Assembly: GCA_946629635.1 (NCBI GenBank)
Contig: CAMOYA010000003.1
Coordinates: 1 to 64,000, forward strand
Direction: 5' to 3'
Origin: an uncultured Clostridia bacterium
Lineage (GTDB): Bacteria > Bacillota > Clostridia > Christensenellales > Aristaeellaceae
DNA length: 64,000 nucleotides
Shown here: positions 43 through 56,896 of the stretch, in pieces
How the letters are laid out: every line of letters starts with the position of its first letter
Position numbering within the stretch: position 1 is the stretch's first letter
Position numbers and translations under genes: made by a program
Notes under the pieces: generated by a model
Databases searched by the model: none
What the model was told of the DNA's origin: nothing
What the model saw: only the letters and a program-made list of their open reading frames with translations

Positions 43-164
43 CTGTCTTTCCTCCTACCTTATCCTCCGCAACCTCAATCGGCGCGGCTCCACACTGTGG
101 AGACCGCTTGTTTCGGTTGATTTCACCTCTGACGAGACTTCCGCCTCAGGCGGTCGTCAGAGGT

Positions 165-1034
165 TCATCCTTTAACAGCCCCACCGGTAACGCCTTCAAC
201 GTAGTACCGCTGCAGGCACATGAACAGCACCGTCACCGGAACCGCCACCAGCACGCCGCCGGAGCAGAACATGGTGTAATTCTTGGAAATCTGATCCTTG
301 TTCAGCCAGTCATACAGGCCGACCGCCACGTTCTTCCCCGCGGAGGTTCCGAAGGAAATGTACCTGGCAAACACATAGTCTCCCCAGGGGCCCATGAAAG
401 CCGTCAGGATCGTATAGATGACGATGGGCTTGGAAAGCGGAAGAATGATCTTGTAGAGCACCTGCGCCCTCGTTGCGCCGTCAACGCGGGCCGCCTCGTC
501 CAGCGACATGGGGATCGTGTCAAAGAAGCCCTTGGAAACATAGTACCCCATGCCGGAGGAAGCGATATACACCAGGATCAGGCCCGGAACCGCATTGGCC
601 TGGGTCATGCCGAGATCCTTCAGCACGCGGTACAGGATGATCATGGACAGCATGCCCGGGAACATCCCCAGGATCAGCATGATCCGCATCAGCGGCTGGC
701 GCATCTTGAAGCGGAAGCGGCTCAGCGTGTAGCTCATGCAGAGCACGATGATCGTCTGGAACACCGCCGTGACCAGCGCGGCAATGAAGGTGTTCAGATA
801 CCAGCGGGGAAAGTCCGTCTCAAACAGGCGGGTGTAATTGTCCAGTCCCCACTGCTTCGGAATAATGTATCCCACGGGGCCGGTGCCTTCCACCCGGAAG
901 GACTGCAGCACGATGCACACGAAGGGAATCAGCCAGACGACGCTGATCACGATCAGCAGGATATGGATCGCCGTATTGCTGATCGCCCGGGAGGTCCGCA
1001 GGCCCATGTGGCGTTTCATCGTCGATTCACTCAT
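165..1034 (-). CDS. MalG-like sugar ABC transporter permease (probable galactooligosaccharide permease)
   Basis: 289 aa, inner-membrane permease fold, EAARVDGA loop typical of MalG. Confidence 0.9.
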   Translation of the reverse strand: MSESTMKRHMGLRTSRAISNTAIHILLIVISVVWLIPFVCIVLQSFRVEGTGPVGYIIPKQWGLDNYTRLFETDFPRWYLNTFIAALVTAVFQTIIVLCMSYTLSRFRFKMRQPLMRIMLILGMFPGMLSMIILYRVLKDLGMTQANAVPGLILVYIASSGMGYYVSKGFFDTIPMSLDEAARVDGATRAQVLYKIILPLSKPIVIYTILTAFMGPWGDYVFARYISFGTSAGKNVAVGLYDWLNKDQISKNYTMFCSGGVLVAVPVTVLFMCLQRYYVEGVTGGAVKG

Positions 1035-2575
1035 CAGCGGAAATCCTCCTCATTCTTGATACTGGGCAGCAGATTGTAAACGATCAGGGAAATCAGCGCG
1101 ACCACCACAAACACCAGGATACCGATGACGGATGCCAGATAATACTGGGTCTCCGCGCCCATGGTAATCTTGAACAGCCAGGTGATCAGCAGGTCCGTAT
1201 AGCCCACGGTGCCCGCCGCGGAGGAGGCCGCCGGATTCGTCGGCGCACCGCCGGTCAGCAGATAGATCACGTTGAAGTTGTTCATGTTCCCGGTAAAGCT
1301 GGTCAGCAGGTAGGGACCGGTCACGAACAGCATATACGGCAGCGTGATTTTCCGGTACTGCTGCCATCCGCTGGCCCCGTCGATCTTGGCGGATTCATAA
1401 AGATCCGCCGGGATGTTCATCAGGATGCCGGTGGTGATCAGCATCAGATACGGTATTCCGATCCAGATATTGATCAGGATCACGGTCACCCGGGCCCAGG
1501 TGGCCTCCTCCCAGAAGGGCAGCGCCTTGGTGATCAGCCCCAGATCCATCAGCGTCGTATTGATGATGCCGTTCTTGGCGAACATCTTGGATACATACAG
1601 CAGGGAGATGAACTGGGGAATCGCGATGGTCAGTACCAGAATCGTGCGCCAGCCCTTCTTGAACCGGATGCCCTTCTTGTTGATGGCCATGGCCACGAAC
1701 ATGCCCAGGAAATAGTTCGTGAAGGTGGCAAAGAACGCCCAGATCAGCGTCCAGATCAGCACCTCGCCGAAGGTGGCCGCATAGGACTGCGTACCGGCTC
1801 CGCCGGTCACATCCCAGGAGAGCATCGTATTGAAGTTGTCCAGCCCCACCCAGGTAAACAGCGCATTCGTATATCCGTTGTGCGCGCCGTCATAGTTGGT
1901 GAATGCCACCAGGATCATGAAAAAGATCGGCAGCACGGTAAAGATCAGAATGCCCGTGACCGGCAGTGCCAGCAGCGTCTTGTGGAACTGATCGTCCACG
2001 ATGCTGTGCAGATCTTCCTTTCCGCTTTTGAGCGGCTTTCCGGAGGCCAAAATCTTCTCCGCCATTTTGTTCTGCCGGATGTTCACCCGCCAGGAATAGA
2101 TGAAGGCGATGATGAAGAAAATGGTCAGCACGCCGTACAGCAGAATCTGGAAGGAATTATCGTGATAGGTGGTCACGTACACGTCGTAGATTTCATTGTA
2201 CTCCTTGCCGGGGCCTTCCGTTCCCAGCGTCGGCAGCATGCTCAGCCATTTGCCTCCGGAGAGGATCATGTAGCCGATAAACACGATTTCAAACAGCAGG
2301 AAAAGAATGCCCCGCAGGATCTGACCCCTGGCCAGATTGCCAAACCCCATGACAAAAAAGGATGTTTTCGTTTTCCAGTCCCCGTGAACAAACGTGCTCC
2401 CGATGTCCTTCAGCTCCCGGCCGACAGCTTTCAGTCCCTGCATCAGCAGCGTCCAGAGCTTCATGAAGAAATGGGCAATGCCCAGGGGGATGGAGACAAA
2501 GAACTTTTTGAGCCTGTACAGGAACTTCTGTCCCTTCGACAGCTTCAGAAATTCCAGATCGCTGTACTGTTTCAT
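1034..2575 (-). CDS. MalF-like sugar ABC transporter permease with long N-terminal extension
   Basis: ORF 1034..2623; likely start MKQYSDLEF at 2575 after an AAGGAG RBS; YESAKIDGA permease loop. Confidence 0.88.
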   Translation of the reverse strand: MKQYSDLEFLKLSKGQKFLYRLKKFFVSIPLGIAHFFMKLWTLLMQGLKAVGRELKDIGSTFVHGDWKTKTSFFVMGFGNLARGQILRGILFLLFEIVFIGYMILSGGKWLSMLPTLGTEGPGKEYNEIYDVYVTTYHDNSFQILLYGVLTIFFIIAFIYSWRVNIRQNKMAEKILASGKPLKSGKEDLHSIVDDQFHKTLLALPVTGILIFTVLPIFFMILVAFTNYDGAHNGYTNALFTWVGLDNFNTMLSWDVTGGAGTQSYAATFGEVLIWTLIWAFFATFTNYFLGMFVAMAINKKGIRFKKGWRTILVLTIAIPQFISLLYVSKMFAKNGIINTTLMDLGLITKALPFWEEATWARVTVILINIWIGIPYLMLITTGILMNIPADLYESAKIDGASGWQQYRKITLPYMLFVTGPYLLTSFTGNMNNFNVIYLLTGGAPTNPAASSAAGTVGYTDLLITWLFKITMGAETQYYLASVIGILVFVVVALISLIVYNLLPSIKNEEDFR

Positions 2576-48343: not shown

Positions 48344-49564
48344 GTGATGCGCATGAAACGTTTTTTCCGTATGATTCTGCTGCTGACGGCAGCGGTGCTC
48401 CTGACTGCCCTCTCCGCATCCGCGGAGGATGCCCTTTCCTTTCTTCCGCTGAAAAACGGAAGCAAGGGGCAGGAGGTGCTGGAGCTCAAGAAGCGCCTGA
48501 AGGAACTGGGATACTACCAGTCCGGCGAGTTTACCAAACGGTACACCGAGGATACGGATGAGAAGATCCGGGAATTCCAGCGGACCAACAGCCTGCCCGT
48601 CACAGGGGAAACGGACGAGGTCACATGGACGCTCCTTTTTTCCGATCAGGCGCTGAAGGCCGTCAAACCCACACTGCCGCCGCTGGCTACGCCGGCACCC
48701 ACCCCGGTGCCGGACTGGCCGGAGCGGGATCCGGACGGCTATCTTGCGGATGGAGAGGAATACTTCTTCGAGGACGATGAAGCCGGTCTGTGGATCTATC
48801 TGGGAAAAGACCTGCAGATCGTCATCACCCACCGGGAGGACTCCTCCATTCCCCTGGAATGGTTCGAAACGGAGATATGGACCCGGAACGGCGAAGCGTT
48901 CCGGACCGCCGCCACGGATCCGGAGCATCCGGGCCGGAAGTTTCAGTACCCCGATGTCATCTCCCGAAACGAGAAATTCGTGCTCGGTTTCTCCGACGAT
49001 TTCTACGGAAACCGGATGGCGGAGAAGGAAACCGTCGGCATCATCATCCGCAACGGTCAGATTTTCAGCCAAAAAACAAACCGGAAAACCGGCCATCATC
49101 TGCCGAATCTGGACATGATGGCGCAGTTTCCGGACGGACGGATGGAGGTATATCCCTGCAATGCGCATACCGCGGAAGAACTGCTGGAGATGGGCGCAGT
49201 CAACGTGTTCAGCTTTGGTCCCATCCTTCTGAAGGACGGGGAAATCAATGATCTGGTATACACCTATTACAAGAGCATCGAGCCGCGCCATGCCCTGGGC
49301 ATGATTGCGCCGGGTCACTACTTCCTGCTCTCCGTTCAGGGGCGCCGCCCGGACAGCCGGGGTACCACGCTGCAGCGCATGGCGGAAATCATGAACGCGC
49401 ACGGCGTTCAGCAGGCGCTGAATCTCGACGGCGGAAACACCATGGCACTGGTCTTCCGGGGCCGGATGCTGAACAAGATGGCCGTTTACAAAAACAAATC
49501 CTTTGTCCGCACCATGACCTCCCTGATCGGCATCGGATACACGGAAAACCAGGCGGAGGAATGA
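48344..49564 (+). CDS. Secreted peptidoglycan-binding / phosphodiester glycosidase (NAGPA) family protein
   Basis: LKNGSKGQEVLELKKRLKELGYY PG-binding repeat; GHYFLLSVQGRRPDSRGTTLQRMAEIMNAHGVQQALNLDGGNTMALVFRG. Confidence 0.88.
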   Translation: MMRMKRFFRMILLLTAAVLLTALSASAEDALSFLPLKNGSKGQEVLELKKRLKELGYYQSGEFTKRYTEDTDEKIREFQRTNSLPVTGETDEVTWTLLFSDQALKAVKPTLPPLATPAPTPVPDWPERDPDGYLADGEEYFFEDDEAGLWIYLGKDLQIVITHREDSSIPLEWFETEIWTRNGEAFRTAATDPEHPGRKFQYPDVISRNEKFVLGFSDDFYGNRMAEKETVGIIIRNGQIFSQKTNRKTGHHLPNLDMMAQFPDGRMEVYPCNAHTAEELLEMGAVNVFSFGPILLKDGEINDLVYTYYKSIEPRHALGMIAPGHYFLLSVQGRRPDSRGTTLQRMAEIMNAHGVQQALNLDGGNTMALVFRGRMLNKMAVYKNKSFVRTMTSLIGIGYTENQAEE

Positions 49565-51445: not shown

Positions 51446-52927
51446 TTATTCCTTGACACCGCCCAGGGCTACGCCGGCGATGATGTACTTGCTGAAGGCG
51501 AAGTACACGATGATCAGCGGCAGCGCCGTCAGGGTCAGGCCCAGATAGATGGAGCCATATTCCGTACGATAGATATCGCCGCGGAGTTCCTGCACCATCA
51601 TGGGCAGGGTCTTCAGATCAGGCTTGGTGAACAGCATCAAAGGCGTCAGGTAGTTGTTCCAGGATCCGATCACGGCCATGATGCCCATGGTTGCCATGGC
51701 GGGAACCATGATCGGCAGGATGATGCTGTTAAAGGTTCTCAGCTCACCGCATCCGTCAATCCGCGCCGCTTCCACCAGGGAGAGCTGCAGGTTGGCCTCC
51801 AGATACTGCCGGAAGAAGAAGACGGTGGATGCCGCCGCAATCGAGGGAATGATCAGCGCCAGCCGGTTGTCCACCCAGCCCAACTGGTACATGAACATGA
51901 AGAAACCGGTACCGGTGACCTGGCCGGGGATCATGATGATCGCCATGACCACCGCGTAGAGGAACTTGTTGCCCTTGAACTGATAGACCTTGAAGCCGTA
52001 GGCCGTCATCGCGGAGAAGTATACGCTCAGGATCGTGGATCCGAACGCGATGATCGCGCTGTTCTTGAAGCCGATGGCCACGTTGAAGTTCTTGGTGGCC
52101 AGCACGTTCCAGTTATAGCCCAGGTACGTGCCCGGAATCAGGCTGACACCCTGCTGAATCGCCTGGCTGGAACGGGTCGCGTTCACAATCATGATCCAGA
52201 AGGGCACGATCGCCAGCAAGCTCAGGAAGGTGCAGAAGACGTAGATCATGCTGCGCTTGGAGTTATGAACGCCCTGAACATGCAGCGCAAAGGCGATCAG
52301 GTTGCCGCACAGAATCATCAGCACCACCGGCGTGTTCAGCGTAGCAGTGCCGTACGGCAGCGCGAACGGGAAGGCCGTCAGCCGGATCACCACATAAGCC
52401 GACAGGATCAGGCTGATCAGATGCAGGAAGGAGGAAACCGTATACAGCACGCTCGCATCCTTGTTCCCTGCCAGCACCACCAGCAGCGCAGCCAGCACCA
52501 TCGTGCCGAGCGCCGCCCAGATGCATCCGTAGTAAACCGGATAATTCCAGTTGTAAATCTTGTACTGATTCACAACCGACATGTCGATCTCCAGCTCGGC
52601 CGGGAGCTGTCCGGGCAGGAAGGAGTATGACAGTCCGGTCTTTTCCCCGGTGTCGGCCGCCGCCTGCTGATCGAGCAGCGCCTGCAGCTTATCCTTTTCC
52701 TTCTGAACCTTGTCCCGCTGCTTCTGGATTTCCGCCTCGGTCTTCTTTCCGCCGTCAATCCAGCGCTGCAGCTGCGTTTCCGCGCTTTCCACCTTGCCCT
52801 GCTGCTTCTCGATGTCCGCATCCATCGCCGCGGAGGAATTGTCGAAGAAGGTCGCCACGGGCAGGAACATACCGATAATCGCGATCGCCATGAAGATCAG
52901 ATAGATTATCTTTCTTGTCTGTTTCAT
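51446..52927 (-). CDS. MalG-type sugar ABC permease with ~210-aa N-terminal TM/coiled-coil extension
   Basis: C-terminal EAARIDGCGELRTFNSIILPIMVPA permease loop; N-terminal DADIEKQQGKVESAETQLQRWIDGGKKTEAEIQKQRDKVQKEKDKLQALLDQQ coiled coil. Confidence 0.88.
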   Translation of the reverse strand: MKQTRKIIYLIFMAIAIIGMFLPVATFFDNSSAAMDADIEKQQGKVESAETQLQRWIDGGKKTEAEIQKQRDKVQKEKDKLQALLDQQAAADTGEKTGLSYSFLPGQLPAELEIDMSVVNQYKIYNWNYPVYYGCIWAALGTMVLAALLVVLAGNKDASVLYTVSSFLHLISLILSAYVVIRLTAFPFALPYGTATLNTPVVLMILCGNLIAFALHVQGVHNSKRSMIYVFCTFLSLLAIVPFWIMIVNATRSSQAIQQGVSLIPGTYLGYNWNVLATKNFNVAIGFKNSAIIAFGSTILSVYFSAMTAYGFKVYQFKGNKFLYAVVMAIIMIPGQVTGTGFFMFMYQLGWVDNRLALIIPSIAAASTVFFFRQYLEANLQLSLVEAARIDGCGELRTFNSIILPIMVPAMATMGIMAVIGSWNNYLTPLMLFTKPDLKTLPMMVQELRGDIYRTEYGSIYLGLTLTALPLIIVYFAFSKYIIAGVALGGVKE

Positions 52928-53904
52928 TTGATCGCCCCCTTCCCTGAAACTTTACCGGGTTTGGGGTCATGGTCATTGAGCACATAGCGGATGACCAGAG
53001 AGCCGGCAATGATGATGACAAACAGCACCACGGAAGCCGCGCTCGCCATGTTGAAATTCCGGGAACCGGTGAAGCCCTGGGTGTAAATGAAGCGGGCGAC
53101 CGTATTGGTGGTCTCGTTCGGGTTGCCCTGGGTCATCATGTGCGGGATATCGAACATGGTCAGACCGCCAACCAGAGAGGTGGTCAGGTTATAAACCAGG
53201 ATGGGCTTGATCAGCGGCAGCGTAATCTTCCAGAAGGTCTGCCGGGAGGTGCAGCCGTCCACCAGCGCCGCCTCGAACAGGCTGGGGTTGATACCGGAAA
53301 TACCCGCGATCATGATGATCATGGTATTGCCGCACCACATCCACCACTGGATGAAGGAGATCAGGCCGCGGCTCCATGCCACGGAGCGGAAGTACTCAAT
53401 CGGCATATTGGCGATACCGGATGTCTGCACAAAGGTGTTCACCGGGCCGATCGGGAACGCGAAGAAGCTCATGAACAGCATACCGATGGTCGCGGCGGTA
53501 ATGATGTTCGGCATGAAGATCGTGGTCTTGTAGAAGCCCTGAAGCTTCAGGTGCAGGCGGCTGTCCGTAAACCAGGAGGCCAGGATCAGTGCCAGGCCCA
53601 GCTGCGGGACGAAGTTGAAGAACCACATGATCATCGTGTTCCCCAGCGAGCCCCAGAATTTGCTGTACACCAGGCTGTTCGGATCAAACAGCTGCCGGAA
53701 GTTCTCGAATCCAATGATGTTGTTGTTCAGAATCTTTTCCCAACCCACAGCATCCGTAATGGATGTCCGGAAGGTAAAGATGATCGGATACAGACCGAAA
53801 ATCAGGAACGTGATAAAGAAGGGAGCGATGAAGATATAACCCCAATGGCTATAGCTGATCGATTTGACCTTCTTTTTCGGCCCAGAGGTTGCCTGCGCTT
53901 GCAT
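52924..53904 (-). CDS. MalF-type sugar ABC permease
   Basis: start MQAQATSGPKKKVKSI; EAALVDGCTSRQTFWKITLPLIKP. Confidence 0.93.
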   Translation of the reverse strand: MQAQATSGPKKKVKSISYSHWGYIFIAPFFITFLIFGLYPIIFTFRTSITDAVGWEKILNNNIIGFENFRQLFDPNSLVYSKFWGSLGNTMIMWFFNFVPQLGLALILASWFTDSRLHLKLQGFYKTTIFMPNIITAATIGMLFMSFFAFPIGPVNTFVQTSGIANMPIEYFRSVAWSRGLISFIQWWMWCGNTMIIMIAGISGINPSLFEAALVDGCTSRQTFWKITLPLIKPILVYNLTTSLVGGLTMFDIPHMMTQGNPNETTNTVARFIYTQGFTGSRNFNMASAASVVLFVIIIAGSLVIRYVLNDHDPKPGKVSGKGAIK

Positions 53905-54095: not shown

Positions 54096-55457
54096 TTATT
54101 CAACAGTGATCGTGGTGATCGCAGCAGCGACAGCTTCCTTGAACTCAGTCAGGCAGGTGTCCAGATCCTTCTCGCCCTTGGTGTAGGGAGTGGTGACATA
54201 GTCGTTCCACAGAGAGTTGATGGTGTCGTCATATTCGCTCATCAGAGAACCGTTGGCCAGAGCCGCGGCGGAAGCGAAGATGGCGTAGTGGTCCTGACCG
54301 CCCAGGAAGGGGTTCGGGGTGCCGCCTTCGGCCAGAATCTTGTCAACAGCAGCCTTGCTGCCAACGAAGTCGCCGGAGTCCTTGGCATACTGGGTCAGGA
54401 AGTCATCATCCAGGGTGAAGAACTTGATCAGGTCATGCATAGCAGCCTTCTTGGCATCGTCAGCCTGAGCGGCCTTCGCAGCGTTGATGCCCATCCAGGT
54501 GCCGCCCCAGCTGTAAGCCACGGGGCCATCGGTGATGCGCCAGTCGCCGTAGGTGCCTTCTTCAGTTGCCTTCTTGATGTTCTCTTCACTGTCGGGGTTC
54601 TCAGCATCCCAGCCAGCCACGCAGTTGGGCTTCAGGGTGTAGTGCAGGCCCCAGGTGGGGAGGAAGTAGCACAGGGTGGGCAGCTCGCCGCGCATACCGG
54701 CGAACCAGGGCTCGGACCAGGCGCCGCCCTTGTGGGTCAGGTCATCCTGTTCCATGGTCTTGACCAGTTCTTCGAAGTCGAGCAGTTCGTCGTCGATGAC
54801 CAGTTTGCCATCAACAACCCAGGGCTCGGAGCGCTGATACTGATAAGCATTCCAGATGTCGCCGGAACCGATGATCATCTTCACTTCGCCGTTGGAAGCG
54901 GTCTTCAGTTCTTCAGCGGTCTCCAGGAAGGTATCCCAGTCAGCAACCTTCGCCTGCATTTCTTCGGGGGTCTTGACGCCCAGGTACTTCTCAGCCAGGG
55001 AAGCACGATACATCAGAACGCCAGGGGTGGACTGCCAGGACAGGCCCTTCTGCACGCCGGCAGAGTTCTGACCGATCTGAGCCATCACGGGGAACGCAAC
55101 AGCCAGCTCTTCGTCGGTGAATCCGATGTCCTTCAGATCGCCGGTCCAGTCGGACTCAACATAGTGCTTCACGAAAGCAGCTTCCAGGGTGAAGATGTCG
55201 GGAGCTTCGTCGCTCGTGGCATTGGCACCGAAGGTGTTGTCAACCTTGGTGGTGTAGGCATTGCCATCAGTCGGATAGATCTGGAACTCGATGTCCAGTT
55301 CAGGATGATTGGGCAGATAGTACTTCTCGATCATGCCCTGCAGTTCGTTGGTGAAAGACCAGACGACCAGCTTGATTTTTCCGTCTTCAGCAGTCGCGAA
55401 GCTCATCATGCCGATCGCGAGCGCCAGAGCCAGAACCAGGGAAAGGATCTTCTTCAT
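54096..55457 (-). CDS. Extracellular sugar solute-binding protein
   Basis: signal peptide MKKILSLVLALALAIGMMSFATA; KLVVWSFTNELQGMIEKYYL family 1 SBP. Confidence 0.92.
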   Translation of the reverse strand: MKKILSLVLALALAIGMMSFATAEDGKIKLVVWSFTNELQGMIEKYYLPNHPELDIEFQIYPTDGNAYTTKVDNTFGANATSDEAPDIFTLEAAFVKHYVESDWTGDLKDIGFTDEELAVAFPVMAQIGQNSAGVQKGLSWQSTPGVLMYRASLAEKYLGVKTPEEMQAKVADWDTFLETAEELKTASNGEVKMIIGSGDIWNAYQYQRSEPWVVDGKLVIDDELLDFEELVKTMEQDDLTHKGGAWSEPWFAGMRGELPTLCYFLPTWGLHYTLKPNCVAGWDAENPDSEENIKKATEEGTYGDWRITDGPVAYSWGGTWMGINAAKAAQADDAKKAAMHDLIKFFTLDDDFLTQYAKDSGDFVGSKAAVDKILAEGGTPNPFLGGQDHYAIFASAAALANGSLMSEYDDTINSLWNDYVTTPYTKGEKDLDTCLTEFKEAVAAAITTITVE

Positions 55458-55827: not shown

Positions 55828-55971
55828 TCATACCGGATTGTTCCAGGGCTTCCTTTCGGATCGGATGGTCTCCCGGGGATGCGCAACCGCTTCCTCCATG
55901 CAGATCCAGAAATACGCGTCCCACAGCGCTTCCTCCAGCGGATAGGAAGACGGTCCTTCAGAAAGGATCAT
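55828..55971 (-). CDS. Possible 47-aa small ORF overlapping the end of the upstream gene
   Basis: MILSEGPSSYPLEEALWDAYFWICMEEAVAHPRETIRSERKPWNNPV; overlaps the stop of 55958..56896. Confidence 0.35.
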   Translation of the reverse strand: MILSEGPSSYPLEEALWDAYFWICMEEAVAHPRETIRSERKPWNNPV

Positions 55972-56896
55972 CCGGGGACGCGACCAGCTCCGACTGGCCG
56001 ATGCCCAGGATCTCCGCCGTTCTGCGCGCGCTGATCCGGCGGTTGTACTCGTTCTTGATTTCGCAGATCTGCCTGCCCATGAAGACCATCGTGCTCGTCT
56101 GCCCGCCGTCCAGATTGAAGGCCACGGTACAGTTTTTATTCATGAACAGGTCCGCCAGCCCGGCAACGGATGTACCGCTGCTGCGGTTGCTGCGGCCTTC
56201 CACCATGATCGCCCAGTAATGGCCCGGTTCCTCCATCCCGATCCCCGCGCGGGGCTGCCGGGATGTCCCGTATTTTTTCAGGCCTGCCTCATTCCGTTCC
56301 CCGTCCCGGATCATCCACGGGCCGAAGGCCAGCACATCCGATGCGCCCTTTTCCAGATACTCTTCCGGTTTCAGCTCATCGCTCCAGAAGGTTTCCATAT
56401 TCCCGTCCGGAAAAATGGCCAGCGTATCCAGGTTCGGAAATGAGCCTTTGTTCTTCGCGCTCGTTTTGGATGAAATGATCTCCCCTGCCCGGATGATGAT
56501 CCCCACCCGGGATTTCTGCTTCATCCGCAGCTGGGCATAATCGCTGTTGATGGCCAGCACGGTGCGGTTGATCCGGGTAATCTTATAGGGATACTCATCG
56601 CCCTTCCACCGGTTCTCCGGATCCGCCGGAATCATGTGCCAGAGCGTTCCGTCCCGGCTGAACACTTCCGCTTCAAACCAGGTGAGCTTCGGTTTCGCCT
56701 GGCTGTAACGGATGATCTCCACGCGAAGGGTATCGCTGCAATAGCGCCAGACCCCTTCTGCTTCGTTTTCATAGACAAACTCGCCGCTGTCCAGAAACCC
56801 TTCCGCATTCAGTTCCGGAAAATCGCCTTCCGCCATCGCGATTCCCGCCATCATGAGCGCCGCCAGGACCAGGCAGCAGGCGAGCCATCTCTTCAT
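55958..56896 (-). CDS. Secreted phosphodiester glycosidase (NAGPA) family protein
   Basis: VLAFGPWMIRDGERNE; PGHYWAIMVEGRSNRSSGTSVAGLADLFMNKNCTVAFNLDGGQTSTMVFMG; paralog of 48344..49564. Confidence 0.87.
   Translation of the reverse strand: MKRWLACCLVLAALMMAGIAMAEGDFPELNAEGFLDSGEFVYENEAEGVWRYCSDTLRVEIIRYSQAKPKLTWFEAEVFSRDGTLWHMIPADPENRWKGDEYPYKITRINRTVLAINSDYAQLRMKQKSRVGIIIRAGEIISSKTSAKNKGSFPNLDTLAIFPDGNMETFWSDELKPEEYLEKGASDVLAFGPWMIRDGERNEAGLKKYGTSRQPRAGIGMEEPGHYWAIMVEGRSNRSSGTSVAGLADLFMNKNCTVAFNLDGGQTSTMVFMGRQICEIKNEYNRRISARRTAEILGIGQSELVASPDDPF

Follow-up and report, generated by a model that had tools for sequence, protein, structure and literature searches.

The MalG-type permeases of CUT1 importers typically comprise ~270-300 aa and six transmembrane (TM) helices, although these values are not strictly defining. 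External additions to MalG are already known and recurrent, occurring in Thermotoga and in other Bacillota. Thermotoga maritima MalG1 and MalG2 carry ~525 extra N-terminal residues, with a hydrophilic region of ~500 residues between TM1 and TM2, and the P2 domain of E. coli MalF, ~180 aa long, is placed between TM3 and TM4 (PMC2246101). In our phylum survey, we also observed a group of Bacillota MalG proteins (L183-L188, L190 and L193), most of them ~440-510 aa long, in which an insert of ~170 aa (FFGxFAPGAVVPFxVTY...RLGRVQSWNN) occupies the first external loop, after the permease's TM1.

The protein described here is encoded in the window, the whole 64,000-nucleotide stretch of DNA that was analysed. 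Its residues 223-493 and its operon with MalF and a substrate-binding protein (SBP) are like those of CUT1 MalG/SugB permeases, but it has 222 extra residues with four TM helices and an external arm. As in the Thermotoga proteins, MalG is C-terminal, the N-terminal addition is large and a hydrophilic region follows the first TM; compared by description, the Thermotoga addition is one long TM1-TM2 region, whereas here it is a whole four-TM module with a short hairpin. The P2 domain is likewise an extracytoplasmic CUT1 addition, but it sits in MalF and not N-terminally on MalG. The Bacillota insert also adds an external domain; it lies within the permease, brings no extra TMs and is apparently independent of the module, whose profile had no match in this phylum sample. 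The Corynebacterium accessory protein MusI was considered as a possible analogue of the module. Our literature search on bacterial claudin-like modules and on MalG with extra TMs found nothing beyond Thermotoga, and, as far as we searched, no MalG bearing an entire four-TM module plus helical arm has been described. Taken with the Thermotoga proteins and the Bacillota first-loop inserts, this module suggests that extra parts have repeatedly been added on the external side of MalG.

An extended MalG in an SBP-MalF-MalG operon

A single ORF at 51446..52927(-) encodes the 493 aa, and it is one intact protein in which a CUT1 MalG permease is preceded by a module of ~222 aa. The permease proper (residues 223-493; 51449..52261(-)) is 271 aa by itself, a normal size, and the four extra TMs belong to the remainder. 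It matches the Pfam domain BPD_transp_1 (PF00528) at residues 306-483 with an E value of 1.9e-17, contains an EAA-type loop that reads EAARIDG at residues 386-392, and has Foldseek matches in SugB (8ja7_B) and in the MalG of E. coli (2r6g_G). The initial annotation, which took the C-terminal part to be a normal CUT1 MalG permease, is thus borne out.

The 493-aa frame starts at an ATG that shares a 4-base overlap, ATGA, with the stop of malF; a Shine-Dalgarno sequence, AGGGGG, can be read directly at 52935..52940(-), 7 bases 5' of this ATG. The alternative, that the long frame is an artefact and that an ordinary MalG of ~267 aa is made from Met227 while the upstream frame is unexpressed, draws on the near-invariance of Met227 among orthologues. 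However, no Shine-Dalgarno sequence lies 5' of Met227, residue 227 is Leu in one orthologue (L057), and the annotated start has both its good Shine-Dalgarno sequence and its overlap with malF. Met227 was therefore rejected as an internal start, and no sign was seen of the start near residue 210 that the initial annotation had named as a possible objection. The upstream frame also argues against this alternative: it aligns in frame and without stops across the module in 57 full-length orthologues, and orthologue pairs with >80% identity give median dN/dS values of 0.19 (module), 0.14 (hairpin), 0.27 (TM2-4) and 0.09 (MalG). Since so many orthologues keep the frame at such ratios in the module and hairpin, the extension is not due to chance. 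Judged from these ratios, the module is kept by purifying selection, and we consider expression from Met227 alone extremely improbable.

The partner MalF-type permease, of ordinary size, is encoded at 52924..53904(-), its ATG at 53904 being preceded by AAGGGGTGG. The cognate SBP (54096..55457(-)) matches the trehalose/maltose-binding protein 1eu8. The gene order SBP, MalF, MalG is the same in the window and at orthologous loci, and the operon has no ATPase gene. Neighbours of the orthologous loci include GH94 in 11, GH3 in 13 and LacI in 14. The GH94 phosphorylase and GH3 glycosidase genes near some of these loci suggest import of beta-gluco-oligosaccharides in at least part of the orthologue family, and the window's own neighbours show no such sign. 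Two secreted proteins flank the transporter region of the window, at 48344-49564(+) and 55958-56896(-); their C-terminal domains are alike (EPGHYWAIMVEGR / APGHYFLLSVQGR ... NLDGG), and they look similar to phosphodiester glycosidase-type proteins.

Predicted fold and distribution of the module

AlphaFold2 predicted the module (~residues 1-222) with a pLDDT of 88.9 and a pTM of 0.74. It models four TM helices and, on a small beta-sheet, an external antiparallel helical hairpin of two ~29-residue helices. All features are on the (-) strand. TM1 (residues 3-19; 52871..52921), seen both by AlphaFold2 and by hydropathy, is followed by the predicted external strand beta1 (residues 23-29; 52841..52861), which contains a near-invariant FLPxAxF motif. 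The hairpin helices predicted by AlphaFold2, whose constraint is reflected in dN/dS, comprise residues 31-59 (52751..52837) and 64-92 (52652..52738); they lead to the external strand beta2 (residues 98-102; 52622..52636), with an LLPxxLP motif after it. AlphaFold2 then places TM2 at residues 129-153 (52469..52543), TM3 at residues 160-185 (52373..52450), a second external loop with invariant P187 and P191 at residues 186-198 (52334..52372), and TM4 at residues 199-219 (52271..52333), after which comes a conserved cytoplasmic link, NSKR(S/T)MIY. Hydropathy averaged over 58 orthologues gave TM segments at residues 7-25, 134-152, 170-188 and 197-215 ahead of the MalG TMs. The two methods thus agree on the order first proposed for this protein, namely one TM, an external coiled-coil hairpin, three TMs and then MalG. 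Because four added helices, an even number, keep the topology of the permease, the loop after TM1 would be extracellular; this topology, together with positively charged residues found N-terminally and behind TM4 (the positive-inside rule), would put the hairpin outside the cell.

The architecture is unusual. Sister permeases are of ordinary size (~290 aa), residues 1-222 have no Pfam match above the cut-off, and no Pfam or NCBIfam family covers the module; a minority of the 58 members show only isolated weak hits of coiled-coil or TM type. The extension is therefore not a widespread annotated domain of these databases, which had been the other objection foreseen. In a Foldseek search of the module against the PDB, the top matches were mostly of the claudin superfamily (Cav gamma-1, TARPs, LHFPL4 and claudin-3), with a best E value of 0.13 and TM-scores <0.5, and there was neither a Pfam claudin match nor a demonstrated sequence relation. 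The claudin, TARP and LHFPL proteins share with the module four TMs and external strands after TM1, but the module has a helical hairpin in place of a larger sheet, and we treat the likeness of the predicted fold as common topology and not as membership. It is quite unlikely, in our estimate, that the module is an accessory subunit of claudin/TARP-like kind, fused to the importer, with an arm that influences how the SBP docks or how the transporter gates and that differs in length between species; if this were true, prokaryotes would have a counterpart of the auxiliary subunits that accompany animal ion channels.

A scan of genome contigs gave 71 loci, of which ~65 encode the full architecture, all of the latter in Clostridia/Christensenellaceae-type MAGs, mostly ruminant. 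Of 396 genomes that sampled the order, a profile of the module picked out 12, which belong to one family, and searches for standalone homologues or homologues in unrelated genes in the order, class and phylum samples returned three weak, partial, chance-like matches only. Within the samples searched, the module is confined to this one (Christensenellales-type) family, which answers the survey across genomes that had been proposed. When the MalG part was used as query against 120 genomes of the module-bearing family, every frame with a match of at least 70% identity and uncut by a contig end was 493-979 aa long; the next matches, of at most 58% identity, were ordinary MalG proteins, mostly of 283-341 aa, and a few of these have longer frames, in which the extra stretch looks like upstream sequence read through and not like the module. 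All extended proteins fall on a single branch of the MalG-part tree (support 100/99), so that a single gain is enough to explain them.

The length of the arm is nearly fixed, the beta1-beta2 spacing being 72-74 residues in 59 of 65 measurable rows. It reaches 177 residues in five loci of four MAGs (L074, L075, L076, L078 and L080) and 289 residues in L082 (a single MAG), and the SBP is ~452-453 aa long whether the arm has ~73, 177 or 289 residues. The distance from LLPxxLP to TM2 is 24-28 residues in most proteins and 37-38 in some, and this second site, after LLPxxLP, holds insertions of 231 residues in L048 and 287 in L082 (one MAG each). In both L048 (5001-7097) and L082 (3510-6425), this beta2-TM2 insertion is coiled-coil-like, and L048 also has an acidic low-complexity stretch.

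The binding protein and its membrane anchor

The initial annotation took the cognate SBP not to be a lipoprotein and proposed that the coiled coil might tether it. The first part stands for the window's SBP, which has a signal peptide, no Cys within its first 34 residues and no lipobox; what does not stand is that this would be special to the system. In module-free sister systems of the same family, with ordinary ~290-aa MalG proteins, the homologous SBPs mostly have no lipobox either, and neither do most of the SBP-like proteins that we sampled in the same genome from stretches around other permeases, where a few proteins do have one. Beside extended MalG proteins, by contrast, an LxGC lipobox-like motif is present in 29 of the 51 orthologous SBPs; since the motif is followed by a hydrophobic run and then an ASA|E-type signal-peptidase-I site, the lipoprotein status of these SBPs is uncertain. 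Thus, SBPs without a lipobox are common where there is no module, SBPs with LxGC occur beside the module, and a missing anchor neither requires nor accompanies it. The idea that the coiled coil replaces a missing lipid anchor of the SBP, to which the window's Cys-free signal region had lent some appeal, was rejected on these controls, and we now regard such a tether as very unlikely. Contact of the external arm with a surface partner, also raised at the outset, is possible.

Across the family (L093-L111 and L158-L169), most CUT1-type SBPs have signal peptides that lack a lipobox, though lipobox-bearing proteins share their genome. Omp85 (PF01103) was not found in the genome (87% complete), as expected of a monoderm, and a diderm envelope was on this ground rejected as the cause of the lipobox-less SBPs. 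These SBPs raise the question of how they are retained at the surface of a bacterium in which no outer-membrane assembly protein was detected.

Possible roles of the module

Based on our findings, we tentatively propose, at somewhat less than even confidence, that the module is a fused accessory subunit beside MalG with its arm near the outer docking zone. An ancestor belonging to a single Christensenellales-type family acquired a four-TM module fused to the MalG of a CUT1 importer, and the extracellular loop after TM1 is predicted to form a small sheet bearing an antiparallel helical hairpin ~4 nm long. The module may pack alongside the TM bundle of MalG, so placed that the arm would be held beside the external opening at which the SBP docks, and could contact the SBP or MalF. 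There, it might have a stabilising or guiding role for the SBP once docked or for the MalF-MalG complex once assembled, with a possible effect on transport. This proposal accords with a fused frame that is intact, full length in ~65 MAG loci and under selection, with the near-constant hairpin length, the confident AlphaFold2 model of the module, the single gain and the SBP-MalF-MalG order, and with closest folds that are, at non-significant scores, claudin-type accessory subunits. CUT1 importers are a textbook case of a machine built from a set list of parts, and here a whole membrane module was fused once and has been maintained by selection in a family of gut bacteria.

Several points weigh against this proposal. 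In the full-length AlphaFold2 model, the MalG half is of low confidence (pTM 0.51), so that this model does not fix where the arm lies with respect to the docking site. In a partial-distance test, which is weak evidence and uncorrected for several comparisons, hairpin distances moderately track those of MalF over and above what MalG and the SBP account for (partial r 0.48, 0/300 permutations). This would hint that the hairpin has its partner within the complex, but the excess covariation of the hairpin with the SBP is negligible (partial r 0.09), and the arm doubles or quadruples with no change in SBP length. Arms of 177 and 289 residues would pass well beyond a docked SBP if they were straight hairpins. 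Sister transporters also persist without the module.

The covariation with MalF rather than the SBP, and the conserved cytoplasmic link after TM4, would also suit a module that serves assembly only, that is, insertion, stability or oligomerisation (for example, coiled-coil pairing of transporter with transporter), with no SBP contact. We consider this rather unlikely: close relatives do without the module, and selective constraint is stronger on the hairpin than on TM2-4, suggesting that the extracellular portion matters in its own right.

The long arms bear on another explanation, in which the arm would act as a spacer that reaches into the cell wall or surface layer (peptidoglycan, S-layer) or would recruit an extracellular glycoside hydrolase, so that the importer stays close to where polysaccharides are cleaved. 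The 177- and 289-residue arms and the 231- and 287-residue segments at the second site exceed what SBP docking would need, the envelope is monoderm-like as judged from Omp85, and GH3 and GH94 genes occur near some loci. On the other hand, the common arm is short and nearly fixed in length, Pfam detected no wall-binding domain, and GH94 phosphorylases are usually cytoplasmic. We regard a spacer as unlikely overall.

For an accessory subunit fused to MalG, the module-free sister transporters that exist alongside offer a natural comparison for what an importer gains from such a domain. Of additional note, the same genome (G000, contig C61) encodes a permease, L002 at 70-1345(-), with a different hydrophilic N-terminal extension of ~140 aa (MSEISTVKSNGTLKMIDGKKFRGYLQAD...), which is probably cytoplasmic.
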